Shown: piece by piece, positions 1,196-18,979 of the stretch
Position numbering within the stretch: the first letter of the stretch is position 1
How the letters are laid out: each line of letters opens with the position of its first letter
DNA from: a virus
IMG/VR virus record: IMGVR_UViG_3300035019_000002
Location: 1-30,119 of that record
DNA: 30,119 nucleotides
Direction: 5' to 3' (one strand)
The notes under the pieces: model-generated
Told to the model about the DNA's origin: nothing
Database searches by the model: none
What the model saw: only the letters and a program-made list of their open reading frames with translations
Program-made: the position numbers and the translations under genes

Positions 1196-3559
1196 CTAGA
1201 GCAGATTTCCCCACTGGGCTTGGGTCATCTCTTCCCATTGCGCTGTGCTCATCTCTTCCCAGTCGAGCGACCCCACTCCATCACTACTGAATCCCATCGC
1301 AAGTCTGCCCTGCTCTGGGTTCGAGATGCCCACAAAACTGAAGCCAAGTGCAGCCCCGGCTTTCATATCGGACTGAGGACGAAGTGTAAAGCCAAGTGTA
1401 AACTCGCCCACGTCCTCAATCGGAGTGAGGTCATACGTGCGATCGCGGCTCGTGAAACTGAAGCCAAGTGCAAACTCCCCTTCATTGGTTTGTTTATAAA
1501 CAGGAGCAATGATTTCAGGATGATCCGCATCGACAAAGCCGAGCAACATGCCATCAAAACTGACCACACAACGGCGCTCTGCCATTGCGATCGCAAACCC
1601 ATCCATTAAATAGGCTGCTGTGCCGTCAGATTCGGCCACGTCGCCTCGTGAGAGCGGAGCATAGGCAAACCAACCATCATTCAAATCCGTCGTAATTGCT
1701 GCGCCTTTGTAGCGTCCCCAGTAGATGTTGCCCCAGACTGAGGCGAGTCGACTGGCTTCGGCTTTGGCATTGGCAATGCCCCCACTCACCCCACCTGAGT
1801 CGACGACAGCAGAGAGATATTCAAAGCTCAACTCCTTCCGGCGCGGGCGGAAGGGCAGAGTTGCATCGACCGGGAACTTACCCTTCCCTGACACCGTAAT
1901 GTCTTGAGTCGTGAACGGTGGGGAATAGGTATCCGGCGCGGGCGGCTGGGCTTGCCCAGAATTGGACGTGACGATGGTATTGCTGGCATCGACGAGCACC
2001 ATCAAATTAGCCGAATCGTAGAAGAGCGATTGCTTAATCAGCTTCTCCCGCAGGGTATCAGTCAAGTCTGGATAGAGAATTGGAATCACCTTTAGCACCT
2101 GCGTTTCGCTCTGCCACTCGCCAAACGTCCGCTCTCGCCACGTCTGGATTTGTTGCTCAGCTTCGTGCATCGATCGCATGGAGCGATATTGTGTCACGTT
2201 GGCTGGTAAAGCTTTATAGCCAAAGTCAGCCGGAATCACCGTGCCGATGGCTTTATAAGTGCGGGTGGTGATTTTGGGTCCATTCCCCAGCTTCTCTAGC
2301 TCTGGGATATCCTGTGGGTCGTCATCCTCAAGGGCTGGGGTTGTCACTGCCGCAGGCGTTAGCTCATAGCGGTAAGTCACATGCGTTTCTTCGATCAGGA
2401 CCAACGTGCCAAGCGCAAAATTCTGAACGAGTGCCTTCGGATAGGTCGATAAAATCTCCTTAAAGGTCGAATCGAACAGTCCATAAACCTGCGTGATGTG
2501 CTCTAGCAGCCGACCTTGATTGCCCTGGCTGCATTTACTCTCCCCGGCTTTGCCTGTGAGGGGTGCATTAACCTCATACTGAAAAGTTTCGATTCGATAT
2601 TCTGAATTAATGAGAGCCGTCCGACCAAATGCAGGCACATCCCGCACGAAGTCAATTGGAATCACCAAGCCTTCAGGCTGTGCGGTCCAGGTTTGCACTG
2701 TGCGTCGCTTCTTGGCGCGATCGAACTGATCTAGCGTCCGAGTGCGCTTGGTAATAATTTCTGACGCAGAAGATGACCCCGCTAGTAATGCAGGTCCATA
2801 CTCTTCGCTCTGGGTTTCGGTCGTGTCGCCCGTTTTGCGAACGATGGTCACCTTGCCGCGAATCAGCACCTCTTCTGAAGGTTGATCGCCTTCCAGCCGG
2901 GAATAGTCTGCCGAATCACTCGCCGCATTCAGGCTGAGGATGGGAGCCGATGGCTGGGCATTGATGCTGCTGGCTCTGACGAGTCCATTGCTATCGACCC
3001 AGAGAAAGTAGCCCGCTGCTGCTGCGATCGCACCTGCCTGCTGTAGATAGTTACCTTCTAGCAGCCGTGGGGAGGGGTGAGCCAGAGAACCGGGAACCGA
3101 ATCGATGAGGCTTGGGCATCCCGACGCTGCTAGTAATCGATTGATAATTTCACCCCGCGCAGTGCTTGTGCCGAGGCAGATTCCCGATTTATCGCCCTTG
3201 CCCTCTTTGAAATTCATCAGGGCAAATATATCGCCCACTTGCAGCGTTAGCTTGCGAGTCTTCAAATCGAAACCACTATCGAGAATAAATAATCGCCCAC
3301 CTCTCGGAGATGGGCGCAGTGTCCCAGAGCTATCAGCAATTTGAACGATGATCGCTTGACCCCGGCTCCAACGGCTATTCCTGCGATCGTCCAAACTCTC
3401 AAACCCAATTGGACGCCCTAAGACAATCTCGCCAGTGAATGTGACTAATCCAGATTGATCAAGCTTCGAGTCGCTGCCACGAAAACTGACGACCCCAGGC
3501 GTGCAGTCTAATCCGGCAATAACAATTTGATAATTGCGAATGCTCAAGTTAATCGTCAT
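1196..3559 (-). CDS. Tail hub / baseplate-like protein
   Basis: This is a 787-residue protein at the place expected for a distal tail hub, after the tape measure and one small tail gene. Residues 1-200 are beta-rich (TGEIVLGRPIGFESLDDRR; FILDSGFDLKTRKLTLQVGDIFAL), and the middle has hub-like segments such as TRKLTLQVGDIFALMNFKEG, but no named family is certain. The C-terminal 100 residues carry four copies of a G-x-(2)-LGF-(S/T)-(F/L) motif (GEFALGFSF, GEFTLGFTL, GAALGFSF, GRLAMGFSS). They end in a tryptophan repeat (DWEEMSTAQWEEMTQAQW). Such C-terminal repeats suggest an oligomerisation or adhesion part. The start overlaps the stop of the 3556-4050 gene (ATGA), so it is probably translated by coupling. 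Hub function is inferred from size and order. Confidence 0.65.
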   Translation of the reverse strand: MTINLSIRNYQIVIAGLDCTPGVVSFRGSDSKLDQSGLVTFTGEIVLGRPIGFESLDDRRNSRWSRGQAIIVQIADSSGTLRPSPRGGRLFILDSGFDLKTRKLTLQVGDIFALMNFKEGKGDKSGICLGTSTARGEIINRLLAASGCPSLIDSVPGSLAHPSPRLLEGNYLQQAGAIAAAAGYFLWVDSNGLVRASSINAQPSAPILSLNAASDSADYSRLEGDQPSEEVLIRGKVTIVRKTGDTTETQSEEYGPALLAGSSSASEIITKRTRTLDQFDRAKKRRTVQTWTAQPEGLVIPIDFVRDVPAFGRTALINSEYRIETFQYEVNAPLTGKAGESKCSQGNQGRLLEHITQVYGLFDSTFKEILSTYPKALVQNFALGTLVLIEETHVTYRYELTPAAVTTPALEDDDPQDIPELEKLGNGPKITTRTYKAIGTVIPADFGYKALPANVTQYRSMRSMHEAEQQIQTWRERTFGEWQSETQVLKVIPILYPDLTDTLREKLIKQSLFYDSANLMVLVDASNTIVTSNSGQAQPPAPDTYSPPFTTQDITVSGKGKFPVDATLPFRPRRKELSFEYLSAVVDSGGVSGGIANAKAEASRLASVWGNIYWGRYKGAAITTDLNDGWFAYAPLSRGDVAESDGTAAYLMDGFAIAMAERRCVVSFDGMLLGFVDADHPEIIAPVYKQTNEGEFALGFSFTSRDRTYDLTPIEDVGEFTLGFTLRPQSDMKAGAALGFSFVGISNPEQGRLAMGFSSDGVGSLDWEEMSTAQWEEMTQAQWGNLL

Positions 3560-5066: not shown

Positions 5067-5101
5067 GATCATTTCCTATTAGTTGATATTGCTTGGGCAA
5101 A

Positions 5102-5998
5102 GTGGATACATTAGTGAGTATGCGGGTGTTTCGCAGAGTTGTAGAACTGAAAAGCTTTGTGGCTGCCGCCGATCGCATGGAAATGTCTGCTGCAATGGTT
5201 AGCAAACACGTTATGCACCTAGAGCAGCATTTAGGCGGTCGCTTGCTCAATCGCACTAGTCGGCATTTAAGTTTGACTGAAATCGGGAAAGTCTACTTTG
5301 AACAATGTTGCGAGATATTGGATAGCCTGGATGAAGTGGAAGCAACGGTCAGCCGAGCCACAATTGTACCGAGTGGGGTGCTAAAAATTAGTGCCCCAGT
5401 TTGGTTTGCCAATCGCACATTTACTAAGATACTTGCTAATTATCAGGCCCAGTTTGCCGCAGTCTCCTTGGACATTGACTTAAGTGGGCGAATGGTTAAC
5501 GTAGTAGAAGAAGGGTTTGATGTGGTATTGAGAGTGACTCAATCTCCTCCTAGTAACCTGATTGCACATCCAATTGCACCTGTTCCATTTTGCATAGTAG
5601 GCTCTCCGTCATACCTTCGCAAAGCTGGATACCCTTTAAAACCGAAAGATTTATCGCAGCACGCAATGATTACTTATTCGTATTTGTCACTTTCAGAGGG
5701 TGAACTGCCCTTTGAAGGACTAACTGGGAAAGAAAGCGTTAAGATTGGGCCGTCGGTGCTGCGGACTAACAATGAAAATCTGATGCACAACGCGGTAATA
5801 GATGGGATGGGTCTGGCATTCTTACCAACTTGGCTGATTGAAGACGATATTGCTGCCGGGCATCTAGAGAGGGTAATGCTGGATTATCGCTTGCCAGCTA
5901 ACATGCTTTATGCCATGTATACTAGCCGCAAATATCTTTCATCGAAAGTGCGAACCTTCGTTGATTTTATTGCTGAATGTAGCGAGCTAAAAAACTAA
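5102..5998 (+). CDS. LysR-family transcriptional regulator
   Basis: The N-terminal winged helix-turn-helix is clear: MRVFRRVVELKSFVAAADRM, then MSAAMVSKHVMHLEQHLGGR and LLNRTSRHLSLTEIG, matching the LysR DNA-binding domain over about the first 65 residues. The rest fits the periplasmic-binding-like effector domain (SGVLKISAPVWFA, LDIDLSGRMVNVVEEGFDVVLR, GMGLAFLPTWLIEDD). GTG 5102 gives the usual beginning (MDTLVSMRVF). TTG 5093 and ATG 5120 are alternatives, and none has a strong ribosome binding site. It probably regulates the divergent dioxygenase, with an aromatic or quinone-like effector as a family-level guess. It is transcribed against the phage genes. Together with the dioxygenase it forms a self-contained cargo inserted at the 3-prime end of the tape-measure gene. 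Confidence 0.9.
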   Translation: MDTLVSMRVFRRVVELKSFVAAADRMEMSAAMVSKHVMHLEQHLGGRLLNRTSRHLSLTEIGKVYFEQCCEILDSLDEVEATVSRATIVPSGVLKISAPVWFANRTFTKILANYQAQFAAVSLDIDLSGRMVNVVEEGFDVVLRVTQSPPSNLIAHPIAPVPFCIVGSPSYLRKAGYPLKPKDLSQHAMITYSYLSLSEGELPFEGLTGKESVKIGPSVLRTNNENLMHNAVIDGMGLAFLPTWLIEDDIAAGHLERVMLDYRLPANMLYAMYTSRKYLSSKVRTFVDFIAECSELKN

Positions 5999-6189: not shown

Positions 6190-9100
6190 TTAAAGATTTC
6201 GTAGGCTGGAGCCTGCTGATTCATTCATAAACTTGGCGTAGTCACTCACGGGATCTTGAGTTGTGAAACTTAAGCTGCGTGGCGTGTTGGCCAGCTTTTC
6301 AATGCGATCGGTCATCTGCTTCAGCGCCCCGATTACATCGCCGCCGCTCGTTGCGGCTTTGTTCACTGCCGATGCCACGCCGATGGCATTTGGTCCTGAT
6401 TTGAAGCTATCAAGTTTACTAGTCAAGTCAGCTACCTCACCAAACCCGCTCTTAGAAGCAATCAGGCTGAGGAATTCCTTCTCCCTGCCAGAGCTGAGGC
6501 TGAGCGCATTCAGTACCGCTTCTTTCTGCCCTTCCTGCCCACGGAACTCATTGCCCGCGATCGCTTGACTAAATGCACGACGGGCATTGTCGTAAGCGGT
6601 AATGTCGCCGCCCGAGAGAACCAGTCCTCCAGACGCGCCTAGCCCTCCACCCCCAGACGATCCCGCCCCTCCAACGCCTCCACCCCCAAATCCTTGAGCC
6701 AAAAGCTGATCTTTCAGTTGTGCCTGCTCGCGGTCTCTCGCACGTCCATTCTTCGCATTCTCCGCCTGTAATGCATCACGGGCAGTCTGTTGTTGCACTG
6801 ACTGAGCTTGTTTCTCTTTAGCAATCCGCTCGTCGATCAGCGCGTTCTGCTCCTGATTAATGTTTATATTTTCACGAGCAAAACCTTGCGACTCCTGAGC
6901 AAAATTCAGATAGTCTTGCGCTGACGAAATTTCCTCTGCATTACCCGACTTCTTTGCTAAGCGCAATTCTTTCTGGGCGTCCAGAACGTTCTGTTTTGCA
7001 GCATTCTCAGCGACTTTTGCTTCGTTAAGTGCCTTTCTTGCGGAAACCTTCTCAAGCTGTAATTGAATCGCTAACGATTCCCGCTCAAGTTGTTGCTGAG
7101 CCTGCATGGCCGCTAACTTCTCCGCATCGGCTTCTCGTTCCAATGCCTGACGATTCTGGGTCAGAGTTAGTACATCGGTTGGCTGTGCTCCTGATACCCC
7201 ACTGCCGCCAAGCTGCTGCTGTAGCACTGCTCTGAGGTTGGCTCCGGTATCTTTCGACTGGAGCGCTTTCACCCCGTCAATATTCTCGTTTGTGCGATCA
7301 ATGCCAATTTTGAGCGTACTTTGACGGGCATCCGCGATCGCTTGGGTTAATTTGAGTTCTGACTCTAAAGCGGTTTTTCGGTTATTAAGAACTCGTGTTT
7401 CAGCCTCAGCATTTGCCTGAATGCCTTTGAGTTGAATCTGTGCATCCAGTTCAACAATCCTATCCCGTTGCGCTCTGGAGTTCTGGTCAATTTGCCGTTT
7501 GCGATCCTCCGCCTCCTTATCAGACAATACTTTGACCGTTTCCTGGGTGGCTTTAGGAGCCTCAATATCAAACCCCAAATCCTTGAAGAAGTTAAATTTC
7601 TGCTGCTCTCTGGAGTCAATTGGGCGATTCACCACTTGAGCGGTGTTGAGTCGTGTTACTTCAGCATCTTCCTTCTGAAGTTGGTCGAACCGTTGCTGTG
7701 CTGCATCCCGTTCTGCCGTTGCCGAAGCAATCTGGGTTTTGATGCCCACAAAGCCGCTGCTGTCGAGGCCACCTAACTTAAAGTTAATGCTGCGATCGCT
7801 GAGCTGAGCATCAATATTCGCATTCACCAGTTTCGACGTGCGCTCAAATTGCTCAATGATCTTACGATTCGTCGCCTCTCTCAGGGCAAGCTCTTGCTCT
7901 GCCTGACGTACAGACAAATCAGCCAGATTATTGCTGAAATCCTGACTACGCCTCTCGTATTCCTCCTTCTTAACAATGCCACGGGCAAACGCCGACTCTA
8001 ATTCATCCAACTGAGATTGAGCGCTGGATTTCTGGGCGTTGGCCGTATTTAAGCCAATCTGCGCTTGGGCGATACCAGCATCCTCTTCGGAAATGGACTT
8101 GCCAATCTTCTGTCGAATCAGCCCCACCGTTGCAGCCGATTCCTGCTGTTTGATTTGAGCTTCACGTTTACGGGCAGAGCGCTCAATTTCAGCCAGTTTC
8201 GCGGCTTCGGCGGCTTTGACAGCAGCTACTTCGTTCTGAGCATTCTGCACCTCTTGATCACTGATACGATCGCCAATCTCACGCCGCTGTTTCTCGTATT
8301 CTTCAGCAGACAATGTGCCCGCTGCAAATGCTGCCTCAATTCCGTCGAGTTGTTGCTTGGTGCTGTCGAGTTCGGCTCTGCCCTTGGTGACTTGCAGGTT
8401 AGCACTTTCAGCACTAGCATCGGCTTCATAAATTGATCCAGTCTTTTGTTTTTCGAGCAATCCAATCTGGGCTGTGTTTGAGTCACGCTTAATCTGTGAT
8501 TCTCGCTCACGATTCGCTTTCTCAATTTCGGCAAGTTTGGCTTGCTCTTCTGCCTTACGCACGGCAATGCGGGCGCTGGCTCCATCCTTCTCCAGTGCTG
8601 TTTGCTGATCTTGAGCTTTTTTATAGTTGATCAGGTTGTCGATAATGGGCTTGGCGTCACTATTAGCAGTCCCTTTGGCCAGCTCCAAATCTGCGATCGA
8701 GGAGTCAAGACTCGCAGTTCTGCCCGTTGAGCCAATCCCGGCAGTGGCGAGTTTATCCTTGATCTCTGGGTCTTGCAGCTTTTTGGCCAGCTCATCCAGA
8801 ATCTGCTTATTGCCCTCAAACTCAGCACTGGCTTTATCCAGTTCACGGCGTGCCGACTGCACAGGAGCACTAATGCTGGCATTGGTATCACTGCCAAATT
8901 GCGCTAGTTGTTGTGTGAGGTCTTGCGTAACTCCTTTGTTAAACGCATTATCCGACTGGCGCTTGACTTCTTCCAACTTCGACGCCATTTCAGCAAAGGC
9001 TTTATTGAGATCTCGTGTCTTATCCGTCGTGATGCCAAGCTTACCCTGCAAGCGGTCTAGCTCATTTTGAGAATTCTGCAACCGCTGCAAATCGCCTTCA

Positions 9101-12100
9101 AGAATTGATTTTTGATCACCCGTGAGAGCTGGATTAGTGAGAGAATTTTTTGTGTTGTTGATTTGCGATGTAATCGCCGCCTGACGTTCAACGAATGGAT
9201 CGATTAATTTCTTGCGTTCTGCCTGCTTAGTCTGGATTTGCTCATCGAGCGCTTTCAGTTCACCCTTGTCGGCATTGGGCGATGCTGCCAAGCGGTTTTT
9301 ACGATTCTGGAGAGAACCGATTTCTTGATCTAGATTTTTGGCTTGCAGCAATGTATCAGTGTTAGTGCTGCGATCGAATGCTTGCCCGACGAGAGATTGG
9401 TTTTTCTCTCGAAAGCGATCGAACTCCAGAGATTCACTCTGCTGCTGCAACTCCTCAACCGTGGTGAAGCGTGCGAAATCCTTGTCTAGTCCAACAGTCT
9501 CATTAAACTTAGTATTGAGGGCGTTAGAAGCTTTGATCAGGTCATCTGTTTTAAACGAAAATCCCAATTGATCCAGCCCTGTTAGACCTAGGAAGCCAAA
9601 ACTAAGATCAAAGCCCTTCGATGTGCTTTTTCCTGGCTTAGGTCCAACTTCGCTAACTTCGCCTCTCGCCCGTTTTGCAGCATCCTCAATCCGTTTGAGG
9701 CTGGCTTCACCCTGATCGGCAAAGTCTTTAAACTGCTTGCCCTTTTCACTGAGAGAAAATACTTCAGTGGTCGATCGCAATGTCTCCATTCCAGCCGTGA
9801 TAAGGGCAAACCCGACCAGGAACTGAGGATTGAACAACGTTGTCGCCACTTTTGTGACTGCACCAGCCAGGGTGGTGAGTCCTGTAACGGCGAGTTTAGC
9901 TAATCCTGGAATCCCGACCAGTGACGTAACAAATTGACTCCCCAGAAGTAGAGCCGCCGTTCCGATCACTTTGACAAGCACATCTCCTCTCTCAGCAACG
10001 AGGTTCAGCGCTCCGGCCAGCCCGTTTGCGCCTATCTGAACAGCAGGCTGAAAAGCTGTACCGCTTGATTCTTGGAATTTCTGGAATGCGCTTTCCAATC
10101 GGAAGATGGAAGACTGAACATTCTTCGAGGCATTCGCTGCTGCCCCACCAAACTCAATATTTAACTGCTGGGCAAACTTGGGTAGAAAGTCCTTCGACGT
10201 AATCGATCCGGTTTGTAGTAACTTATTCAGCTCTTGTTCTGTGACTCCGATCGCACGGGCAGCCACGCCGAATGCACCTGCTAAACCTGCATCCCCGATT
10301 TGCCCTTTCAATTCTTCAGAGGACAAAACGCCCTTCGAGCTAATCTGCTGCAATGCCGTGAAGATGCGCCCTTGCTGATCACCATTCAAACCGAGCACGG
10401 TTGCGGCTGATCCAACCCCTGAAAAAATGTCTTGAGCTAATGCGCCACCTTCTGCACCTTTCAGCGATGCTCTCAGCTTGGCATAGCCATCTTGAGCCGT
10501 TTTAAGTGGAATGCCTAATCGTTCCGTTTCCTGACGAACAAAGGCAAGCTCTTTCGCCGCCTGCGCTGGACCTCCCGCCGCAAAGTTCAGCGCCGTCTTG
10601 AGGTTATCCAGTCGGATGCTGGCTTTTAGTGCGGCTCCACCAAACTCAAACACTAACGTTTTGAGGAACGATAAAGCTTGAAAGGCAAGGAACCCTTTCA
10701 CAACACTGCCAAGCTGAGCACTTAAGCCAGGAAAAACGCGATCGGCGAGTGCGGCAAACGGTTTCTCAGCATTAAAGCCAGAACTGAAGAGGGCTTTAAG
10801 TGTTTTGAAATCGTTAATAATGCCGCCAAACTTGCCCTCAAACTTTGCGCCAGCCAGAGCGCCTGACAAGGATGCACCAAAGCCGCTCTTGGCACTGCCA
10901 ACCGCTCGCCCTGCGATTTCTAGCGGGTTGAATGACTTACCTGCGCGAACCTCCTGAACACTCTGCCGCACAGAACCAAAGACGCGATCGCGACCAGAGA
11001 TAAATGAATCCCTTGCCCCAGAAGCCACTTGTGCCAGCGTGTCACGCGGCGTCACTCGCTCACCTTGCTTGATGCGATCAACGAGTGAAGCGATAGGATT
11101 GCGAATGCTGCTGATCACGCCTGCGATCGCATCTTTAGCAACACCAGCCGGATTGACGATTGTGCGCTGGGCATCCCGTTGCAAATCTCTGCCAACAGAC
11201 ACGCCAGCATTTGCCGCGACGGTTGCACCAGCCGCATAGGTCGTGCCCAGATTGGTGAGACGTGGATCAATGCGACGGGTATCGAGCTGCTCGTTATACT
11301 TACCCGTGTCGAATCGGTTGAGGGTATTGATCACGCCTGCTTGCGATCTTCCAACTCCGAAGCCACGATTGAAAAACTCAGCTTCTTTCGTCAGTTCGGA
11401 AAATCTAGCTTTTAGGCTTGAGAAGAAGTCCTTTGTGCCCTGCACCCGCGATTGAATGCCGTCGAGCAGCAATGCGCCTGCTTTGCGCCCAATTTCCCCC
11501 ACATCTTTGTAGAGCACCGGCGCAATCGGTTCGAGAATCGGTCGCGCGGCACGAGCCGCCGCAATACCCCCGGCAATCCCCGCTGCACCCAAACCCGCAA
11601 CGCCCAACGGAGATGATGCGATCGCACCTGCACCCGCTCCTAATTGAGCCAAACTCGGCAGAGCGAATCCACCACCTTGAGAACCTAATCCTGCTAATGC
11701 AGGCAATGCACCAATGGCATAAAATCCGTTTGTTCCGGTCTTCTGCCCAACATCTGAGCCTTGGTTAAATGCCTTAACAACCTGATCGAGTTCTTGCTTC
11801 TGGGCGTCAGTCTGAGGATTTGCAGGTTTCTCGAATTTTCCAAACCGAGACTCAACAGCACTCAGTTGGTCTTTTACCTGCGGTCGTAGCCCGCCAGAAC
11901 TGCGAATAAAGCCTTTGTAATTCGCCAGAACACCTGTGATGTTTTTGCCCAGTTTTCTGGCCAGGTCTTGTTCGATTTTGTCTTGCTCATCATCCAATGC
12001 TTTTAGCAGTGTTTGGAGCCGTTTTGCCTTCTCTGGACCTGTGGCAGATTTGGCTGCATCAAACTCAGCCCTGAATCGTTCCTTATTCGCCTTAACTTGA

Positions 12101-14238
12101 GCCTGAAATGCCTGCTTAGTGGGTTCAACACCTGCTTCTAATAATCCAGCTTTGGGAATTCGAGTGCCGATTCTGCTCTCATCAGAAACAGGCTCAGGAA
12201 TGGTATTACGCTGACGTTGCTGCTGAGCAAATGCGGCTGGGTCTGCCTCGAATGCCCTGCGATCTGAAATGACTCTGGCACTATTGCGAGCACGTTTGCG
12301 AAATGATTGCTGTTTGCGTTCGTAGTCCTGCTGGGCTTTGTCTATTTCTGCATTAGCCGTTGCAATTTCTTTTTCTAGCGCTGCCTGCTTGCGTGCCAGA
12401 TCACTTAAACTCTCGCGAACAGTGGCCACATCGCGATCGGTCTTAGCAGTAATTCCCTTATCGCTAAACAGCTTGGGAGATTGATAGAGGAAATTTTGCG
12501 TGTCCTGTTGAAAGGATTCTGACTTGAGGTAGGACGGTGCAAGGTGTCCGGCTCCGGTCGAGTCGGTGTAGAATTTTGAGTTCTTTGAAGCGAGACTAAA
12601 TGGGCTTAATGGGTCTAGTGCTCCGATCGAGGCTTGGTTGTTCTCTGGGTTCGGGTTGAGAATTCCAAATTGAGGTGTACCAAACGATACTGCCCGTGAG
12701 GGCACATCTAATTTTTTGAGAATCTGCTGAGCATCTGAAGCTGCAAAGCCGCCTGCTGAGTGCCCAACTAAATCAATTTGCGAGCCAGGATTTCTGAGGT
12801 AGCGAGCATAGGCTTGCGCGGCAATCTCTTCAGCGTCCTTATTGCTGCCTACCAGCCCATTTTTGGCAGTATTGGTGATGGCATTCACCAGCCAGGGAAT
12901 TGGTTGTTTTAGTGCATCAAATCTGACATCAGTATTTGTGTTTGCAACAGCAGTGACTTCACTCTGATTGAGGAATGGCTTGAGGGATTCGGCAAGCTGT
13001 TGTGAACCTTGGCCACCTTGCCCCGCATACCCTGCTGAAACAAACGCAAAGCGATCGCGATCGCTTTCCTTTAAGGTTGGCGCAATCTCTTCTGCTCTGG
13101 CCTTAACCCGCTCGGCTGAGGCTTGATAGCCCTCTTGATAGCGGCGGCGTGCCCCACCGATGATCGTGCCATCGTCGGCAGTGTCTTCGTAGAAGCTGAT
13201 ACCAGCCCCAACCACCTGCTTAAACTCTTGGCGATTGGCAACTGCCCCCGACTTTTCGGCAACGGTGCTCACTCGTGAAATGAGTCGACGGGCAGAAACT
13301 TCACCAATTTTTTCAAAGGTGAAGCCAAACTCGTTCTCTAGTTTCTTCTGAAAGCCACCCGCGAAGCTGGATGAAATCGAGACGCCAATCCCTTGCTGAA
13401 ATCCAGAAATCACCTGCCGTGCAGGTCCAGTTGCAGCAGCGATGCCTTGTTTGAACAGTCCAGCCCCGGTCTTAAAGACAGCTTCAAAGTCGATTAGCCC
13501 AGTTTTGAACCCACCGACGATCGCATCTTTCATCAGTGGCAGAACTGCACCACCAATCGACTCAACAAAACCGCTATAGAGAGACGTTGCGGTGCTGGCA
13601 ACTGGTCCCCGCTCTTGAGTTACAAATGATTTGGCAGAGACGGCACTAACAATCGAAGAAGTAGACTGTGCGATCGCACTGCGAATTTCAACAGAATCGA
13701 CATTCAGCTTCGCGCTGGGGCTTTGCGGCAGAGTGTATCCACCTGTAGTGCTAGAAATGGGAGCCTGTGTTGCTGCTGGCGCAATTGCTCGATAAACGGG
13801 CTGCTGTGGAACGTTGATCCGAACCTGCTGCCCGTTCAGCGTGCGAATGTTGGCTTGCAATTGCTCAAGCTGTTGATTCAGGCGCTGAATCGATTGCTCA
13901 CTTTTGGAGGTGTCGATCTCAATGGTGAGTTTGCGCCCAATCGTTAGATCTCGCAGTTGCGTTTGAAAATTACCCGTATTCTTAAGCTGAACATCAACCG
14001 CGATCGCAGGAAGCTTAAGGTCTTTCAGCTTACCTTTCAGCCCATCAATATCAGGGCAGATTTTAACGGGGATACAGTCCAGTTCTAGCCCTTTCAGTTG
14101 TTTCTTGAGGGATGCAGTGTTGAGCTTCACTTCAATTGGGGCAATACCCACGGTTTGAAGTTCTTGCAAGTCACGATTGAGCTTCTCTCGCCCAACAAGA
14201 ACCACCTCGATCCCGATTGATCCAACAATTTCAGTCAT
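6190..14238 (-). CDS. Tail tape measure protein with embedded alpha/beta-hydrolase domain
   Basis: This 2682-residue protein sets tail length and is probably partly delivered during infection. Residues 1-100 hold three related strand-helix units (APIEVKLNTASLKKQLKGL; CIPVKICPDIDGLKGKLKDL; PAIAVDVQLKNTGNFQTQL). Residues about 390-590 look like a lipase-type alpha/beta hydrolase: RFAFVSAGYAGQGGQG, nucleophile elbow GHSAGG with Ser494, LDPLSPF with Asp542 and GAGHLAPS with His565. Hydrophobic Gly/Ala-rich helices follow near 860-920. Residues about 1200-1400 match the conserved tape-measure domain (RLDNLKTALNFAAGG; ISSKGVLSSEELKGQIGDAG; EQELNKLLQTGSITSKDFLP). Long coiled coil fills about 1480-2510, including two 113-residue repeats, then a glycine linker near 2516-2543. 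The C-terminus is a diverged copy of a remnant found beyond the LysR/dioxygenase cargo. The ATG is preceded by leader element 3. Confidence 0.95.
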   Translation of the reverse strand: MTEIVGSIGIEVVLVGREKLNRDLQELQTVGIAPIEVKLNTASLKKQLKGLELDCIPVKICPDIDGLKGKLKDLKLPAIAVDVQLKNTGNFQTQLRDLTIGRKLTIEIDTSKSEQSIQRLNQQLEQLQANIRTLNGQQVRINVPQQPVYRAIAPAATQAPISSTTGGYTLPQSPSAKLNVDSVEIRSAIAQSTSSIVSAVSAKSFVTQERGPVASTATSLYSGFVESIGGAVLPLMKDAIVGGFKTGLIDFEAVFKTGAGLFKQGIAAATGPARQVISGFQQGIGVSISSSFAGGFQKKLENEFGFTFEKIGEVSARRLISRVSTVAEKSGAVANRQEFKQVVGAGISFYEDTADDGTIIGGARRRYQEGYQASAERVKARAEEIAPTLKESDRDRFAFVSAGYAGQGGQGSQQLAESLKPFLNQSEVTAVANTNTDVRFDALKQPIPWLVNAITNTAKNGLVGSNKDAEEIAAQAYARYLRNPGSQIDLVGHSAGGFAASDAQQILKKLDVPSRAVSFGTPQFGILNPNPENNQASIGALDPLSPFSLASKNSKFYTDSTGAGHLAPSYLKSESFQQDTQNFLYQSPKLFSDKGITAKTDRDVATVRESLSDLARKQAALEKEIATANAEIDKAQQDYERKQQSFRKRARNSARVISDRRAFEADPAAFAQQQRQRNTIPEPVSDESRIGTRIPKAGLLEAGVEPTKQAFQAQVKANKERFRAEFDAAKSATGPEKAKRLQTLLKALDDEQDKIEQDLARKLGKNITGVLANYKGFIRSSGGLRPQVKDQLSAVESRFGKFEKPANPQTDAQKQELDQVVKAFNQGSDVGQKTGTNGFYAIGALPALAGLGSQGGGFALPSLAQLGAGAGAIASSPLGVAGLGAAGIAGGIAAARAARPILEPIAPVLYKDVGEIGRKAGALLLDGIQSRVQGTKDFFSSLKARFSELTKEAEFFNRGFGVGRSQAGVINTLNRFDTGKYNEQLDTRRIDPRLTNLGTTYAAGATVAANAGVSVGRDLQRDAQRTIVNPAGVAKDAIAGVISSIRNPIASLVDRIKQGERVTPRDTLAQVASGARDSFISGRDRVFGSVRQSVQEVRAGKSFNPLEIAGRAVGSAKSGFGASLSGALAGAKFEGKFGGIINDFKTLKALFSSGFNAEKPFAALADRVFPGLSAQLGSVVKGFLAFQALSFLKTLVFEFGGAALKASIRLDNLKTALNFAAGGPAQAAKELAFVRQETERLGIPLKTAQDGYAKLRASLKGAEGGALAQDIFSGVGSAATVLGLNGDQQGRIFTALQQISSKGVLSSEELKGQIGDAGLAGAFGVAARAIGVTEQELNKLLQTGSITSKDFLPKFAQQLNIEFGGAAANASKNVQSSIFRLESAFQKFQESSGTAFQPAVQIGANGLAGALNLVAERGDVLVKVIGTAALLLGSQFVTSLVGIPGLAKLAVTGLTTLAGAVTKVATTLFNPQFLVGFALITAGMETLRSTTEVFSLSEKGKQFKDFADQGEASLKRIEDAAKRARGEVSEVGPKPGKSTSKGFDLSFGFLGLTGLDQLGFSFKTDDLIKASNALNTKFNETVGLDKDFARFTTVEELQQQSESLEFDRFREKNQSLVGQAFDRSTNTDTLLQAKNLDQEIGSLQNRKNRLAASPNADKGELKALDEQIQTKQAERKKLIDPFVERQAAITSQINNTKNSLTNPALTGDQKSILEGDLQRLQNSQNELDRLQGKLGITTDKTRDLNKAFAEMASKLEEVKRQSDNAFNKGVTQDLTQQLAQFGSDTNASISAPVQSARRELDKASAEFEGNKQILDELAKKLQDPEIKDKLATAGIGSTGRTASLDSSIADLELAKGTANSDAKPIIDNLINYKKAQDQQTALEKDGASARIAVRKAEEQAKLAEIEKANRERESQIKRDSNTAQIGLLEKQKTGSIYEADASAESANLQVTKGRAELDSTKQQLDGIEAAFAAGTLSAEEYEKQRREIGDRISDQEVQNAQNEVAAVKAAEAAKLAEIERSARKREAQIKQQESAATVGLIRQKIGKSISEEDAGIAQAQIGLNTANAQKSSAQSQLDELESAFARGIVKKEEYERRSQDFSNNLADLSVRQAEQELALREATNRKIIEQFERTSKLVNANIDAQLSDRSINFKLGGLDSSGFVGIKTQIASATAERDAAQQRFDQLQKEDAEVTRLNTAQVVNRPIDSREQQKFNFFKDLGFDIEAPKATQETVKVLSDKEAEDRKRQIDQNSRAQRDRIVELDAQIQLKGIQANAEAETRVLNNRKTALESELKLTQAIADARQSTLKIGIDRTNENIDGVKALQSKDTGANLRAVLQQQLGGSGVSGAQPTDVLTLTQNRQALEREADAEKLAAMQAQQQLERESLAIQLQLEKVSARKALNEAKVAENAAKQNVLDAQKELRLAKKSGNAEEISSAQDYLNFAQESQGFARENININQEQNALIDERIAKEKQAQSVQQQTARDALQAENAKNGRARDREQAQLKDQLLAQGFGGGGVGGAGSSGGGGLGASGGLVLSGGDITAYDNARRAFSQAIAGNEFRGQEGQKEAVLNALSLSSGREKEFLSLIASKSGFGEVADLTSKLDSFKSGPNAIGVASAVNKAATSGGDVIGALKQMTDRIEKLANTPRSLSFTTQDPVSDYAKFMNESAGSSLRNL
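7892..8569 (-). repeat. Tandem 339-bp (113-residue) repeats inside the tape measure
   Basis: Two consecutive in-frame units share KLAEIE, R-x-SQIK or R-EAQIK, a G-I/L-L/I segment, QLDGIEAAFAAGTLSAEEYE versus QLDELESAFARGIVKKEEYE, then a charged helix. The CTCGTATT encoding part of EEYE lies at 8293 and at 7954, exactly 339 bases apart. A third, diverged unit may begin downstream (ALREATNRKIIEQFERTSK). Unit duplications that keep frame in a coiled coil would directly lengthen the tape. Boundaries are approximate. Confidence 0.7.
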
Positions 14239-14471: not shown

Positions 14472-15296
14472 ATGACTGAACCAATTGATACCGCAACTAC
14501 TTCAGTTCTGCACACCCCAGCTTATGCAAGCTTCGACTTCAACACTGATAAATTGAAGCACTTCATTCAGTTCATGGGTCGCGGGTTTCAAGGAATTAGC
14601 CAAGAAGCTACCTTATCAAAGACTAGAAGCTTTTACTCTGCGCCTAATGATTTATTAGAGTTAAACGCAGAAGAGCTTAGCAGTAGAGCAAAGAAGATCA
14701 ATTTGACACTAGACCAGCTAACAGAGATCGATCAAGAAATCTCAGATTATGCAGAGAAGTGGAATGCACATATCTCCGGGTTCAATGTGGGAGTCGAGTG
14801 GATGCCAGTGTTGATAGTTACCATTGTTGAAGCCTATCTCATGGATGTGCTTGTTTATGCTGCCAGCACTGATTCTATATTTATGGAAAAATCTGGAATG
14901 TCTTCTCCATATTCTGAAATGGCTAATGCTTCGTCGTTGGAAGAGTTACTTCAAGGTTTGAGATCTCAATGGGCAAGAAAATTCATCAATGATGGAGGTC
15001 CGAAATATTGGATTCATACCCTTACGAAGATGGGCGCTCGTGGGTATAGCTCAGAACTTACAGAAGAGATGGAGACTCTTTGGGGTATCAGGCATCTGAT
15101 TGTACATTCGACTGGAATTGCCACGCCTGATTTTGTTCATCGGCATCCAGACTTTGGTGTGGCAGTTGGAGAGAGAATTCAAGTGAAGTGGAATCAGTTA
15201 GGTGGTTGGTGTAAGTCGGTTTATCACTTTGTTGACGTAACTGATGCCTACTTCGCACAACGTTGCAAGCTGAAATCTTCTGAAACGCAAAGCTAA
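14472..15296 (+). CDS. HEPN-domain protein (putative ribonuclease, RiboL-PSP-like)
   Basis: This is a 274-residue soluble, helix-rich protein. Near the C-terminus WGIRHLIVHSTGIATPDFV contains the HEPN signature R-x4-H (Arg207 to His212). In HEPN ribonucleases this pair lies at the dimer interface and cuts RNA. The 'RxLIVHxxGI' form with a following VGERIQV strand is typical of the RiboL-PSP / MAE_28990-like HEPN groups. Upstream helices (VEWMPVLIVTIVEAYLMDVL; LEELLQGLRSQWARKFI) fit the four-helix HEPN core. No MNT nucleotidyltransferase partner with its GSx10DxD motif is next to it. It lies on the plus strand between two minus-strand phage genes and is probably cargo with a second gene downstream. 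Toxin, anti-phage or host-maintenance roles are possible and cannot be told apart. No good Shine-Dalgarno sequence precedes the ATG. Confidence 0.75.
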   Translation: MTEPIDTATTSVLHTPAYASFDFNTDKLKHFIQFMGRGFQGISQEATLSKTRSFYSAPNDLLELNAEELSSRAKKINLTLDQLTEIDQEISDYAEKWNAHISGFNVGVEWMPVLIVTIVEAYLMDVLVYAASTDSIFMEKSGMSSPYSEMANASSLEELLQGLRSQWARKFINDGGPKYWIHTLTKMGARGYSSELTEEMETLWGIRHLIVHSTGIATPDFVHRHPDFGVAVGERIQVKWNQLGGWCKSVYHFVDVTDAYFAQRCKLKSSETQS

Positions 15297-15383
15297 GCTT
15301 TATCATCTGCTAGCGCCCTATGCCTTTTATGTCCCAAAACAGTGCAGCCTGCTGGTATAAACTGCTTTAGCCTCAGGAGCCGA

Positions 15384-16037
15384 ATGATGAAAACGCAAGA
15401 CTCTAACAACTATACCGAGAGCAATGGGGTACAATTTCAGGGTTTTGTGTCATTGTCAGTTCTGCCTGTTACACCTGCGCTCATATTTGAGCCAATTCGA
15501 TTTCAAGTTGGACTAAGGATTAAGAACAATACGCCTACTCCTGTATGTATTAATCTCTTTAACACATTGAGTTGTACTATTCTTAGCGAAAATAATTCAG
15601 TTACTCCGTGCCACCACGTTTGCACGCAGCTTTGTCAAGCTTCTGAAAGAGATTTTTCCGCCATCCTACCAGGTGAGACATTGCTTCATCTCTACCCTGC
15701 ACAACTCTCACTTTTTGTAGATGGGGGCACTGGGAGATGGATGACACGCTGGTGGAGACGTTTCTTGAAATTGGTCAATCCTCAACTTGCTTATCTATCG
15801 GTTCGTTGGGAGACTGAACGTACTCTAGGTTTATCTATTTTGCCAGGGGATGGGAAATTAGGTTGTGAGCTAGTCAAGCCTGGAGTTCATCAAATTTTGT
15901 TCACCTACCGCAATCAACGCTCATCTTCAGAATTTTATGACCGTGCCACTAAAACTACACGCGTCGTAGAGAATCTTTGGGTCGGTAGCGTGACCAATAT
16001 TCCTCCCGTCCCGATCGATATTTCTCGATCGTCATGA
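15384..16037 (+). CDS. Unknown beta-rich protein, second gene of the HEPN cargo
   Basis: I do not recognise the family. The start is set by AGGAG at 15375-15379, followed by two in-frame ATGs at 15384 (4 bases) and 15387 (7 bases). The second gives better spacing and a protein of about 217 residues starting MKTQDSNN. The longer GTG start at 15342 lacks such a site. The sequence alternates hydrophobic strands (GFVSLSVLPVTPALIFEPI; RFQVGLRIKNNTPTPVCINL; LAYLSVRWETERTLGLSILP; GVHQILFTYRNQR), suggesting an all-beta, immunoglobulin-like or lectin-like fold. Four cysteines lie within residues 40-80. There is no signal peptide or membrane helix and no nucleotidyltransferase motif. It lies 87 bases after the HEPN gene, probably in one transcript, and ends before a bidirectional terminator. 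It could act with the HEPN protein or be an independent passenger. Confidence 0.7.
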   Translation: MMKTQDSNNYTESNGVQFQGFVSLSVLPVTPALIFEPIRFQVGLRIKNNTPTPVCINLFNTLSCTILSENNSVTPCHHVCTQLCQASERDFSAILPGETLLHLYPAQLSLFVDGGTGRWMTRWWRRFLKLVNPQLAYLSVRWETERTLGLSILPGDGKLGCELVKPGVHQILFTYRNQRSSSEFYDRATKTTRVVENLWVGSVTNIPPVPIDISRSS

Positions 16038-16330: not shown

Positions 16331-16765
16331 CTAATACATCCAGCGAATTGCGCCGTCGCCGTATTTAAACCCACCTCTACGCAAGTCGCAGTGCGTGAAC
16401 CCGCGTCCACTGGCAACGCCATAGCCCAAACCACCACCCCAGTTTTCATCCAGGAAGGTTTCAAACTCAGCATCACGACCGTCCATCGTGTAGATATCGG
16501 CGGCTGAACCATAGATGTGTTGAGAGTTGACCACTCCCCCACAAGCTAAATTGATTTCATAGGGACGATACCAGGATGTGACCCCAATTGCGCTGCCCCA
16601 TGCGTCTCTAACTTTGTCTAGTTCTACTGCCAGGTTCAAGATGGCAGCTTCTTCATCTGAACCCACCGCAGGGAGTCTGCGATCGTCGTTTTGAGTTACC
16701 TCTGCCACGGTGAAATGTTTGCTAACTGAAGCAGAGGGATTATTCCAATCAATAGGTTGAGTCAT
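16331..16765 (-). CDS. M15-family zinc D-Ala-D-Ala carboxypeptidase-like murein hydrolase
   Basis: This 144-residue protein is almost entirely a peptidase M15 domain (M15_3-like). HFTVAEVT lies near residue 17, TSWYRPYEIN at 63-72, and the zinc signature SQHIYGSAADIY gives His83 and Asp90. The third ligand is His125 in FTHCDLR, with Asp127 nearby. Members cut peptide links in peptidoglycan. There is no signal peptide or membrane segment. It may be the endolysin (needing a holin that is not seen here) or a tail-associated lysin that opens a hole during entry. Its place between the tail chaperone and the tape measure favours the second. Leader element 4 precedes its ATG, and a minus-strand terminator separates it from the chaperone extension upstream. 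Confidence 0.9.
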   Translation of the reverse strand: MTQPIDWNNPSASVSKHFTVAEVTQNDDRRLPAVGSDEEAAILNLAVELDKVRDAWGSAIGVTSWYRPYEINLACGGVVNSQHIYGSAADIYTMDGRDAEFETFLDENWGGGLGYGVASGRGFTHCDLRRGGFKYGDGAIRWMY

Positions 16766-16853: not shown

Positions 16854-17498
16854 TCATTTGAGCAGAACAATTTTCGACTCTACAAGTGAGAATTCTGCAT
16901 CCAACATCCAGCAATCGCCAGCAGGCACATCAACCGCAAACCACGTCTCACTATCCGGGTCTTTCACGTCCACAACACCCGCTGCACCGTCAACGATCGC
17001 GAATGGAGCCGTCACCTGCTGCCCTGAAATTCGAGGCAGCAATATCACAACGCCATCGCCAACCCAGATTCGTGGGCGAATGACTCGCCCATTTGCTCGA
17101 CCGGATTCAAGCTTATCGATCGGGCAGAGAGGCACTGCCCACGCAGGCATGATGCCATCCCGCACACAACTAAAGAAGGCATCGCACGCCGCAGCAGGGA
17201 TCGAGATATGCTCAGCAGCAGACTGGAAGTAATAAAAATCAGACGGTGATGCTGGCTCGCTGTCCTTGCCCCTGTTGGCATTGACAAACAAACTAGAGAG
17301 GGTAGCAATACCTAACTCATGCAGATGCAGTTCTTCATGATGCAGCTTGGCTCCCCACTCTAGCGCCTGAAAAATTAGGCTGATGGGCTGGAAGGCGAAG
17401 TTTCTGTGATTGAATCGCTCGTCGTGTCCCCAGTAGTGCTGGATTCGCCAGAAGATGCCGTCCCAGTCGGGTTCGGCGTCTCCTTCAAGGATTTTCCC
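16854..17498 (-). CDS. Tail assembly chaperone extension ('T' part), made by -1 frameshift
   Basis: This frame has no ATG or ribosome binding site; its only late start would be TTG 17291. Read in the -1 frame relative to the chaperone gene upstream, it is open from the slippery site at 17498 to the stop at 16854, through and beyond the chaperone stop at 17375. The overlap region encodes a protein-like sequence (DWDGIFWRIQHYWG; NFAFQPISLIFQALEWGAKL; HHEELHLHELGIATLSSLF). It continues into VNANRGKDSEPASPSDFYYF and a beta-rich end. This is the layout of G/G-T tail chaperones, where a minor fused product binds the tape measure during tail assembly. The fusion would have 222 residues from the upstream frame plus about 212 from this one. 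Confidence 0.8.
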   Translation of the reverse strand, partial: GKILEGDAEPDWDGIFWRIQHYWGHDERFNHRNFAFQPISLIFQALEWGAKLHHEELHLHELGIATLSSLFVNANRGKDSEPASPSDFYYFQSAAEHISIPAAACDAFFSCVRDGIMPAWAVPLCPIDKLESGRANGRVIRPRIWVGDGVVILLPRISGQQVTAPFAIVDGAAGVVDVKDPDSETWFAVDVPAGDCWMLDAEFSLVESKIVLLK

Positions 17499-18157
17499 AG
17501 CTCTTCATCTGTAGATGGTTCCTTGGTCGGTTCTGCGGTATTCCAGCCGTTTTTCTCTTTGTAAGCAAATGCTGCCACTTCACGGACCAGTTCATAGTCC
17601 AGAAGCTCTGGGTTCATCGTGTCTTCGAGTGTCCAGTTAGAGTCTAGACGGAAGATAATGATCGCCGCTGCATACACATAATTCTGGAAGGGCAGCGACT
17701 CTAGATAATTATTCGTGAGAGCTGTGATTTCTGCGTAATAGTCGCCATACCAAGCGGGTGTAACTAATTCGATGCCCTCGCCTGCAACTGAAACAAAATC
17801 ACCATCGCTACCAAAGGAAACCGTGATGAGTTCGTTTCCTTCAACGGTTTCAATTTTGGTGATTTTGCCCTCTTTGCCGTCTACTGTCACGAGGTCATTT
17901 TGAATGAAGCCGCCGAATAGGTAAGCATTGATGCGATCGTTAACATAGGCAAAATGAGCGCCCGTCTCGCGGGAAATTCGCTTGGCCAGTGCCGCCAGTG
18001 CAAACTGATAGTTGTATAAATCTTGTTTTTTAATGAAGCCAAACTCAGCACGGGTAAGATTTTCGTACTTTTTAATCGGTAGAATTCCAATCTCTTCATT
18101 ACCAACATCAACAACCTCGTACTGGCGTGAGGGTGCAACTTTAAAAGGAAGTGCCAT
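17375..18157 (-). CDS. Tail assembly chaperone ('G' part)
   Basis: This 260-residue protein begins MALPFKVAPSRQYEVVDVGNE, with a compact N-terminal part of about 195 residues (KKYENLTRAEFGFIKKQDLY; SLPFQNYVYAAAIIIFRLDS; LLDYELVREVAAFAYKEKNG). A low-complexity, Ser/Thr/Pro-rich tail of about 60 residues follows. The tail begins near the slippery site, so most of it exists only in the unshifted product. The gene lies between the tail tube-like protein and the tape-measure region, the usual site of tail chaperones. A conventional AGGA lies 9 bases before the ATG, in a degenerate version of the leader element. The family is assigned from order, length and the frameshift, not from a remembered sequence match. 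Confidence 0.75.
   Translation of the reverse strand: MALPFKVAPSRQYEVVDVGNEEIGILPIKKYENLTRAEFGFIKKQDLYNYQFALAALAKRISRETGAHFAYVNDRINAYLFGGFIQNDLVTVDGKEGKITKIETVEGNELITVSFGSDGDFVSVAGEGIELVTPAWYGDYYAEITALTNNYLESLPFQNYVYAAAIIIFRLDSNWTLEDTMNPELLDYELVREVAAFAYKEKNGWNTAEPTKEPSTDEELGKSLKETPNPTGTASSGESSTTGDTTSDSITETSPSSPSA
17492..17498 (-). promoter_or_regulatory. -1 ribosomal frameshift slippery site, G GGA AAA
   Basis: On the minus strand the chaperone frame reads CTG GGA AAA TCC, so the heptamer G GGA AAA sits in the X XXY YYZ register. Slipping back one base places the ribosome on GGG AAA ATC, which enters the long open -1 frame. It is one base different from the lambda G-T site (G GGA AAG). Confidence 0.85.
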
Positions 18158-18200
18158 TATCTGATTTCCTGCTCAACATCGCCCTAAGCATTCCCGCTAA
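18158..18200 (-). promoter_or_regulatory. Leader element 5 (degenerate) with conventional SD
   Basis: The minus strand has GCGGGAATGCTTAG where other leaders have TAGGAATTCTGAG. A weak stem GCTTA/TGAGC follows. Unlike most of the group, a normal AGGA stands 9 bases before the ATG at 18157, so the folded form is not needed here. Confidence 0.4.
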
Positions 18201-18271: not shown

Positions 18272-18979
18272 TTAGGCGTAGCGCAGAATCGTTGGCGATC
18301 CATTTCCGCGAAATGTGGTCTGGAAACTGAGGATGCCATCTGACTTAAGATCTTTGCTAAAGTCAGTCACAATGCACGCACCCTTCAAGCCATCGCCCGT
18401 GGTGTAACCAACTGGCGCGGGATCGTACTGCCAAATCCAAATTTCGCGCTGCGAGGTTCCATGACTGGAGGCATAATAGACGCGACGATAGGCATCGTCA
18501 TCAGCCAACAAATTCGCTGTCCAAGGAATTTCCCAGGAAGCCCCCGTGATCACACTGTCATCATATCCAAGCTCATCCTCAAACACCAAAGATTCTTGAG
18601 TCTTGTTGCTGAGTTTGGGGCTGGTCGACGTACCACCTAAGAGGCGTAACTTCGGAACATAGGTGGCTGTGCAAACCCCTGCAACCGTTGCCGCAGCAGG
18701 CTCGATTTGCAACACGGTAGCATCAGCTTTAGCATCTGCCGTGAGATAAACCTTGACCTTCGTGCCACCTGCATTGGCAAACTCTAGGGGAGTGCCGCCA
18801 GCAATACCCACACCACCCACAGCAGCGCCGAGGTTGATTGTGGTTGCGTTTGCGGTAATGCCAGCATTGCTGGTAGCGATACCGTTAATGGTAACGGGTT
18901 CGGTGCGATCGCCTAGTGGAAGCAGTGCAACATATACAAAAACTTTGTTGCCTGCTCCAACCTGGAACTTCTTAGGCAT
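18272..18979 (-). CDS. Major tail tube-like protein
   Basis: This 235-residue protein begins MPKKFQVGAGNKVFVYVALL. It is beta-rich with an Ala/Gly/Thr-rich middle (GIATSNAGITANATTINLGA; AGGTKVKVYLTADAKADATV). The last part (SWEIPWTANLLADDDAYRRV; REIWIWQYDPAP; CIVTDFSKDLKSDGILSFQT, ending FRGNGSPTILRYA) follows the usual end of a siphovirus tube protein, where a strand reading 'SFQTTFRGNG' is typical. Its position before the chaperone pair supports this. It has a normal GGAG 9 bases before the ATG, as suits a highly made protein, in addition to a copy of the TAGGAA leader motif. A strong hairpin follows its stop codon. Confidence 0.75.
   Translation of the reverse strand: MPKKFQVGAGNKVFVYVALLPLGDRTEPVTINGIATSNAGITANATTINLGAAVGGVGIAGGTPLEFANAGGTKVKVYLTADAKADATVLQIEPAAATVAGVCTATYVPKLRLLGGTSTSPKLSNKTQESLVFEDELGYDDSVITGASWEIPWTANLLADDDAYRRVYYASSHGTSQREIWIWQYDPAPVGYTTGDGLKGACIVTDFSKDLKSDGILSFQTTFRGNGSPTILRYA

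Follow-up and report, generated by a model that had tools for sequence, protein, structure and literature searches.

Phage lambda makes its gpG and gpGT proteins through a well-known programmed −1 frameshift, which reviews credit to Levin in 1993 and Xu in 2004. In that phage, the tape measure protein is bound by G, and the tube subunit is brought in by T (PMC5009743). For Burkholderia phage KL1, a tail frameshift at G GGA AAC has been predicted in gp18/gp19 (PMC3483164); there, the 0-frame stop lies just past the site and an extra gene stands ahead of the tape measure gene. In actinobacteriophages, the authors of PRFect count about a thousand frameshifts at the G GGG GAA motif that they call 'fivetwo' (PMC10885494).

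Here, we analysed a 30,119-nt stretch of viral DNA (IMGVR_UViG_3300035019_000002), hereafter the window, whose sequence very probably carries a lambda-type G/GT tail-assembly chaperone gene with a programmed −1 frameshift, in a cyanobacterial prophage. It resembles lambda in having a seven-base −1 slip site close to where the shorter protein ends, a short product together with a fusion extended at the C-terminus, and the order tube, G/GT, M15 peptidase and tape measure, which corresponds to V-G-GT-H of lambda with extra genes. It differs from lambda in that its G and T lack detectable sequence similarity to any named G or T family, G has a Tudor-like insertion, the 0-frame tail continues for 38 codons beyond the slip site, and T is separated from the tape measure gene by an M15 peptidase gene plus two genes on the opposite strand.

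Anatomy of the G/GT locus

The features of the locus and its surroundings are as follows.

18272–18979, minus strand: tail tube protein gene, the upstream neighbour (NCBIfam NF047353, above cut-off)
17375–18157, minus strand: G, the 0-frame chaperone ORF, 260 aa, ATG start (ORF list)
17753–17899, minus strand: Tudor/KOW-like domain inserted in G, residues about 87–135 (AlphaFold model, pLDDT 91)
17492–17498, minus strand: slippery heptamer G GGA AAA (codons CTG GGA AAA), in register for −1 slippage
17450–17484, minus strand: candidate stimulatory stem-loop, starting 7 nt past the heptamer, 6+4+3 pairs
17375–17491, minus strand: dual-coding overlap, 117 nt, a 0-frame Ser/Thr-rich tail overlying the conserved start of T in the −1 frame
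16854–17498, minus strand: T domain in the −1 frame, from the heptamer to TGA, 212 residues beyond two shared codons
16854–17291, minus strand: 145-aa ORF starting with TTG, a likely gene-finder call, start probably spurious
16331–16765, minus strand: M15 peptidase (endolysin-like) gene, located after T and before the tape measure gene
6190–14238, minus strand: tape measure protein gene, the downstream neighbour, 2682 aa (PHROG, Pfam TMP_3, TIGR02675)

The first-pass annotation had placed a G GGA AAA heptamer in the correct −1 register of the chaperone frame, with a −1 frame open beyond the chaperone stop to 16854 and products of 260 and about 434 residues. A minus-strand reading agrees on each point: the context of the heptamer is GAA GAG CTG GGA AAA TCC TTG, and the −1 frame is stop-free from 17504 to the TGA at 16854–16856 (214 codons, counted from the heptamer). 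Joining the frames gives a predicted GT fusion of exactly 434 aa, made of 222 codons of G plus 212, and the predicted junction-spanning peptide reads ...STDEELGK followed by ILEGDAEPDWDGIFWR. The large minus-strand ORFs of the window contain two further in-frame G GGA AAN sites, at 1211 and 28972; both were rejected as frameshift candidates, their −1 frames shutting after 11 and 7 codons, respectively, and the site at 17498–17492 is the only one of the three that opens onto a long −1 frame.

On the proposed mechanism, most ribosomes would stay in the 0 frame and yield G, while a minority would slip back one base and yield GT. The P-site Gly (GGA) and A-site Lys (AAA) tRNAs would re-pair on GGG and AAA. 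Slippage on ribosomes and its frequency are inferred.

Conservation of the slip site

T-domain relatives were gathered from whole genomes, GTDB contigs, IMG/VR and phage records, and the resulting family comprises 58 loci, mostly cyanobacterial prophages and viral contigs, including Synechococcus phages S-CBS2 and S-CRES1. The collection scans used a closer set, because one broad alignment proved too diverse. In the 58-locus scan, the T frame was set by homology, the 0 frame was taken as one base ahead, and an in-register X XXY YYZ was sought inside the overlap. Such a canonical heptamer is present in 52 of the 58 loci. Reading the other six by eye revealed an in-register G GGG GAA or G GGG GAG in five, at least four of which fall at Leu-Gly-Lys/Glu codons homologous to the window site. 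Conservation of the heptamer in homologues, which had been named beforehand as a check on the frameshift, is thus seen as an in-register, slip-prone heptamer in 57 of the 58 overlaps. After near-identical loci had been collapsed, 41 of the 46 clusters contain the canonical heptamer, compared with an expected 2.5, given that such heptamers occur 15 times in 10,668 codons in other parts of these reading frames; as the clusters share ancestry, a Poisson value for this difference is not a true probability. We nevertheless regard a gap of this size as decisive for an excess over chance in these sequences.

The remaining locus (L059, about 2890–3060) has an upstream chaperone-like frame that is offset from T by +1 (or −2), at GAC TTT AAA AGC, which would reflect either slippage of another kind (+1 or −2) or an indel error in the contig. 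A further locus (L085 in G065; about 7200–7840 and 18296–18583) has the slip site G GGG GAA TAG and a fragment of a second T domain about 11 kb away.

The slip motif itself varies inside the family between GGGAAAN, AAAAAAN and GGGGGAR. The five relatives whose overlap has an in-register G GGG GAA/G share the 'fivetwo' motif of actinobacteriophage tail chaperones, whereas the window uses the canonical G GGA AAA. S-CBS2 and S-CRES1 carry T-domain homologues with 25–31% identity, preceded by a G-like ORF that ends in A AAA AAG TAA, in −1 register. They differ from the window in the heptamer (A AAA AAG), in the 0-frame stop that follows it at once, and in the position of G/T, which lies ahead of the major tail gene and an HNH gene. 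We found no report of a frameshift in S-CBS2 in the open-access literature.

Codon usage points in the same direction. Among the six closest homologues, a single codon is kept at just 10 of the 75 invariant G residues, and the GGA and AAA codons of the heptamer are among these 10. The preceding Leu codon is CTG or TTG, its final G being constant. All other invariant Gly positions of G in the six-homologue table use two or three codons each, and GGA makes up 20% of Gly codons in the window.

An alternative route to GT would be transcriptional slippage, in which the polymerase adds or drops bases at the run and the altered mRNA is translated normally. Three loci (L018, L025 and L026) do have runs of at least 7 A at the site, yet the run in the window consists of just three G and four A, which is short for polymerase slippage, and what the family conserves is the register of the slip motif relative to the codons rather than the length of a homopolymer. 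We consider transcriptional slippage highly improbable.

Evidence for translation of T from the heptamer

The start of T distinguishes programmed frameshifting from a reading in which the locus comprises two genes, the chaperone and an independently translated 145-aa protein initiated at TTG 17291. Both ORFs would appear in gene-finder output, and in the records of S-CBS2 and S-CRES1 the homologous halves are two genes, annotated without a frameshift. The TTG at 17291, however, is the earliest start codon in the −1 frame, 69 codons on, and the first ATG lies 354 nt past the frame opening. No SD-like sequence precedes the TTG in the upstream stretch CATGAGTTAGGTATTGCTACCCTCTCTAGTTTG. This codon sits inside T, whose conserved part (DWxxIFW...NFxxQP...) starts about 57 codons before it. 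The first-pass annotation had described a downstream frame with neither ATG nor SD, which these positions support, and its forecast that a gene finder would split off a 145-residue TTG orphan and lose about 67 residues fits the length of the stand-alone ORF, which omits 67. It had also named homologues with a separate, well-initiated T gene as a possible refutation; no such gene in place of the overlap is present in any of the homologues examined.

Substitutions in the overlap bear on the same question. We compared the window, as reference, with L002, L003 and L004 over the 117 nt, which align gap-free. In the three comparisons, 5 of 9, 8 of 14 and 13 of 21 substitutions fall at third positions of the −1 frame, and amino-acid changes number 3, 7 and 8 in the −1 frame versus 6, 9 and 16 in the 0 frame. 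Protein-level selection on the −1 frame is therefore visible right after the heptamer, and the third-position bias implies that this frame is already translated from the heptamer onwards, before the TTG is reached. The earlier expectation that the −1 frame encodes a plausible protein across the overlap holds in that the pattern of change there is that of −1-frame coding sequence. We also considered, and rejected, selection acting on the 0-frame tail: its substitutions lie mostly at second codon positions, so that the tail appears passively open. The 0-frame stop lies one codon past the heptamer in L005, L006, L016 and L017 and directly after it in many A AAA AAG members, ranging across the family from 0–1 to about 38 or more codons past the site. 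Such early stops in relatives show that the tail is dispensable, and in sequence comparison this Ser/Thr-rich stretch looks to be under little constraint.

Two separate genes would account neither for the −1-frame selection between the heptamer and the 0-frame stop nor for a conserved heptamer, which a separate gene would not need, and we judge this arrangement to be about as improbable as transcriptional slippage. Even less credible is a pseudogene split from a formerly single gene by a frameshift mutation or sequencing error: adjacent overlapping frames can originate in this way, but the recurrence of the two-frame arrangement in dozens of independent assemblies from divergent lineages refutes it for practical purposes, and changes between copies are biased to third positions in both parts.

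Candidate stimulatory structure

The stem-loop at 17484–17450 has a predicted folding energy of −19.2 kcal/mol (z −3.8). For 48 loci, folding the 50 nt that start 5 nt past the heptamer gave a mean z of −0.90 (s.e.m. 0.18; 11 below −2), compared with −0.15 to −0.40 at eight control offsets of the same loci. The closest relatives were searched for covariation in a stimulatory RNA, but the stem has no compensatory pairs, and the window has no Rfam match. Because a stem of the window type is not universal, being weak in some relatives, and lacks compensatory changes, we infer only that it may assist slippage.

Protein families, predicted structures and neighbouring genes

G shares an N-terminal LPF motif with its homologues and has no match in Pfam, PHROG or NCBIfam. 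T matches phrog_34388 only, a family of 'unknown function' (E 4.1e-10 for the window T), as do 35 of 38 T-domain homologues. The profile covers T from about residue 44 only, which fits with the start of the domain having been cut off in annotated members. AlphaFold models are confident, with a mean pLDDT of 91 for G and 87 for T. In a Foldseek comparison, the insertion in G matches Tudor domains with a probability of 1.00 and weak E-values (0.01–0.1); this barrel is carried by the window lineage (the window and L002–L006) and is missing in most relatives. Fold matches of G in the PDB were confined to this Tudor-like insertion. The PDB fold search returned no meaningful match for the T domain and no solved chaperone structure matching G or T. 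The best viral model match is F4YCJ6, with 181 residues, a length equal to that of S-CBS2 gp015.

The window G/GT lies between the tube and tape measure genes, with extra genes before the latter. A gap of 114 nt separates the tail tube gene from G, and the homologue of the tube gene in L082 matches Pfam Phage_tail_2. The tube protein (18272–18979) aligns to the tube model from residue 115 only, which leaves about 114 additional residues at its N-terminus. An M15 peptidase gene occupies the equivalent place in L003 and L004, while in L084 T stands immediately ahead of the tape measure gene. Two plus-strand ORFs (14472–16037; 274 and 231 aa) lie between the M15 peptidase and tape measure genes of the window, with no family match in PHROG, Pfam or NCBIfam. 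A LysR-family regulator gene (5093–5998, plus strand) is located inside the minus-strand tail cluster, beyond the tape measure gene.

The name 'tail chaperone' is thus based on anatomy and neighbours rather than on a family model or solved structure for G. The identity originally proposed is supported by the anatomy, the tube gene upstream and the tape measure gene downstream. Families of tail chaperones are known to lose recognisable similarity, for which reason the absence of a chaperone match does not exclude G from them. By analogy with lambda, G and GT would act as chaperones: G may form a coat on the tape measure protein, and the tail tube subunit may be recruited by the T domain.

A second G/GT copy in the same genome

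The same genome contains a second G/GT on contig C87 (L081, G000:C87, 449–1784), 91% identical to window positions 16863–18186 over 1.33 kb, with the heptamer and both frames intact and changes that favour third positions. No similarity to the window beyond G/GT was detected on this contig at the sensitivity of that search, and no other phage gene was recognised. The neighbours of the cassette are host-type (a DUF4347/SBBP/FG-GAP protein, SDR, LysR, a glycosyltransferase and TetR), and a multicopy repeat forms the end of the contig, about 0.3 kb from T. Another contig, C78, holds a second related prophage, broken off within its tube gene. Judging from these sequences, the likeliest explanation for the C87 copy is a rearranged piece of this second prophage, or an assembly artefact. 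It seems very unlikely that the host or a satellite maintains this copy as a functional stand-alone unit, as opposed to its being relocated scrap of the C78 prophage; were it functional, it could, for example, interfere with or supply tail assembly.

Implications

The mechanism is the well-known G/GT frameshift of phage lambda, and the locus represents a new family within a known system, as a phage specialist would expect. The finding is convincing and useful for annotation while being mechanistically ordinary. It gives the unnamed family phrog_34388, which corresponds to the T half, a likely role and its correct beginning, together with a G partner for which Pfam, PHROGs and NCBIfam have no model. 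As both the slip motif and the 0-frame stop vary within one family, the loci offer a natural series for the essential parts of a frameshift signal. With them, the G/GT rule is extended across cyanobacterial prophages.
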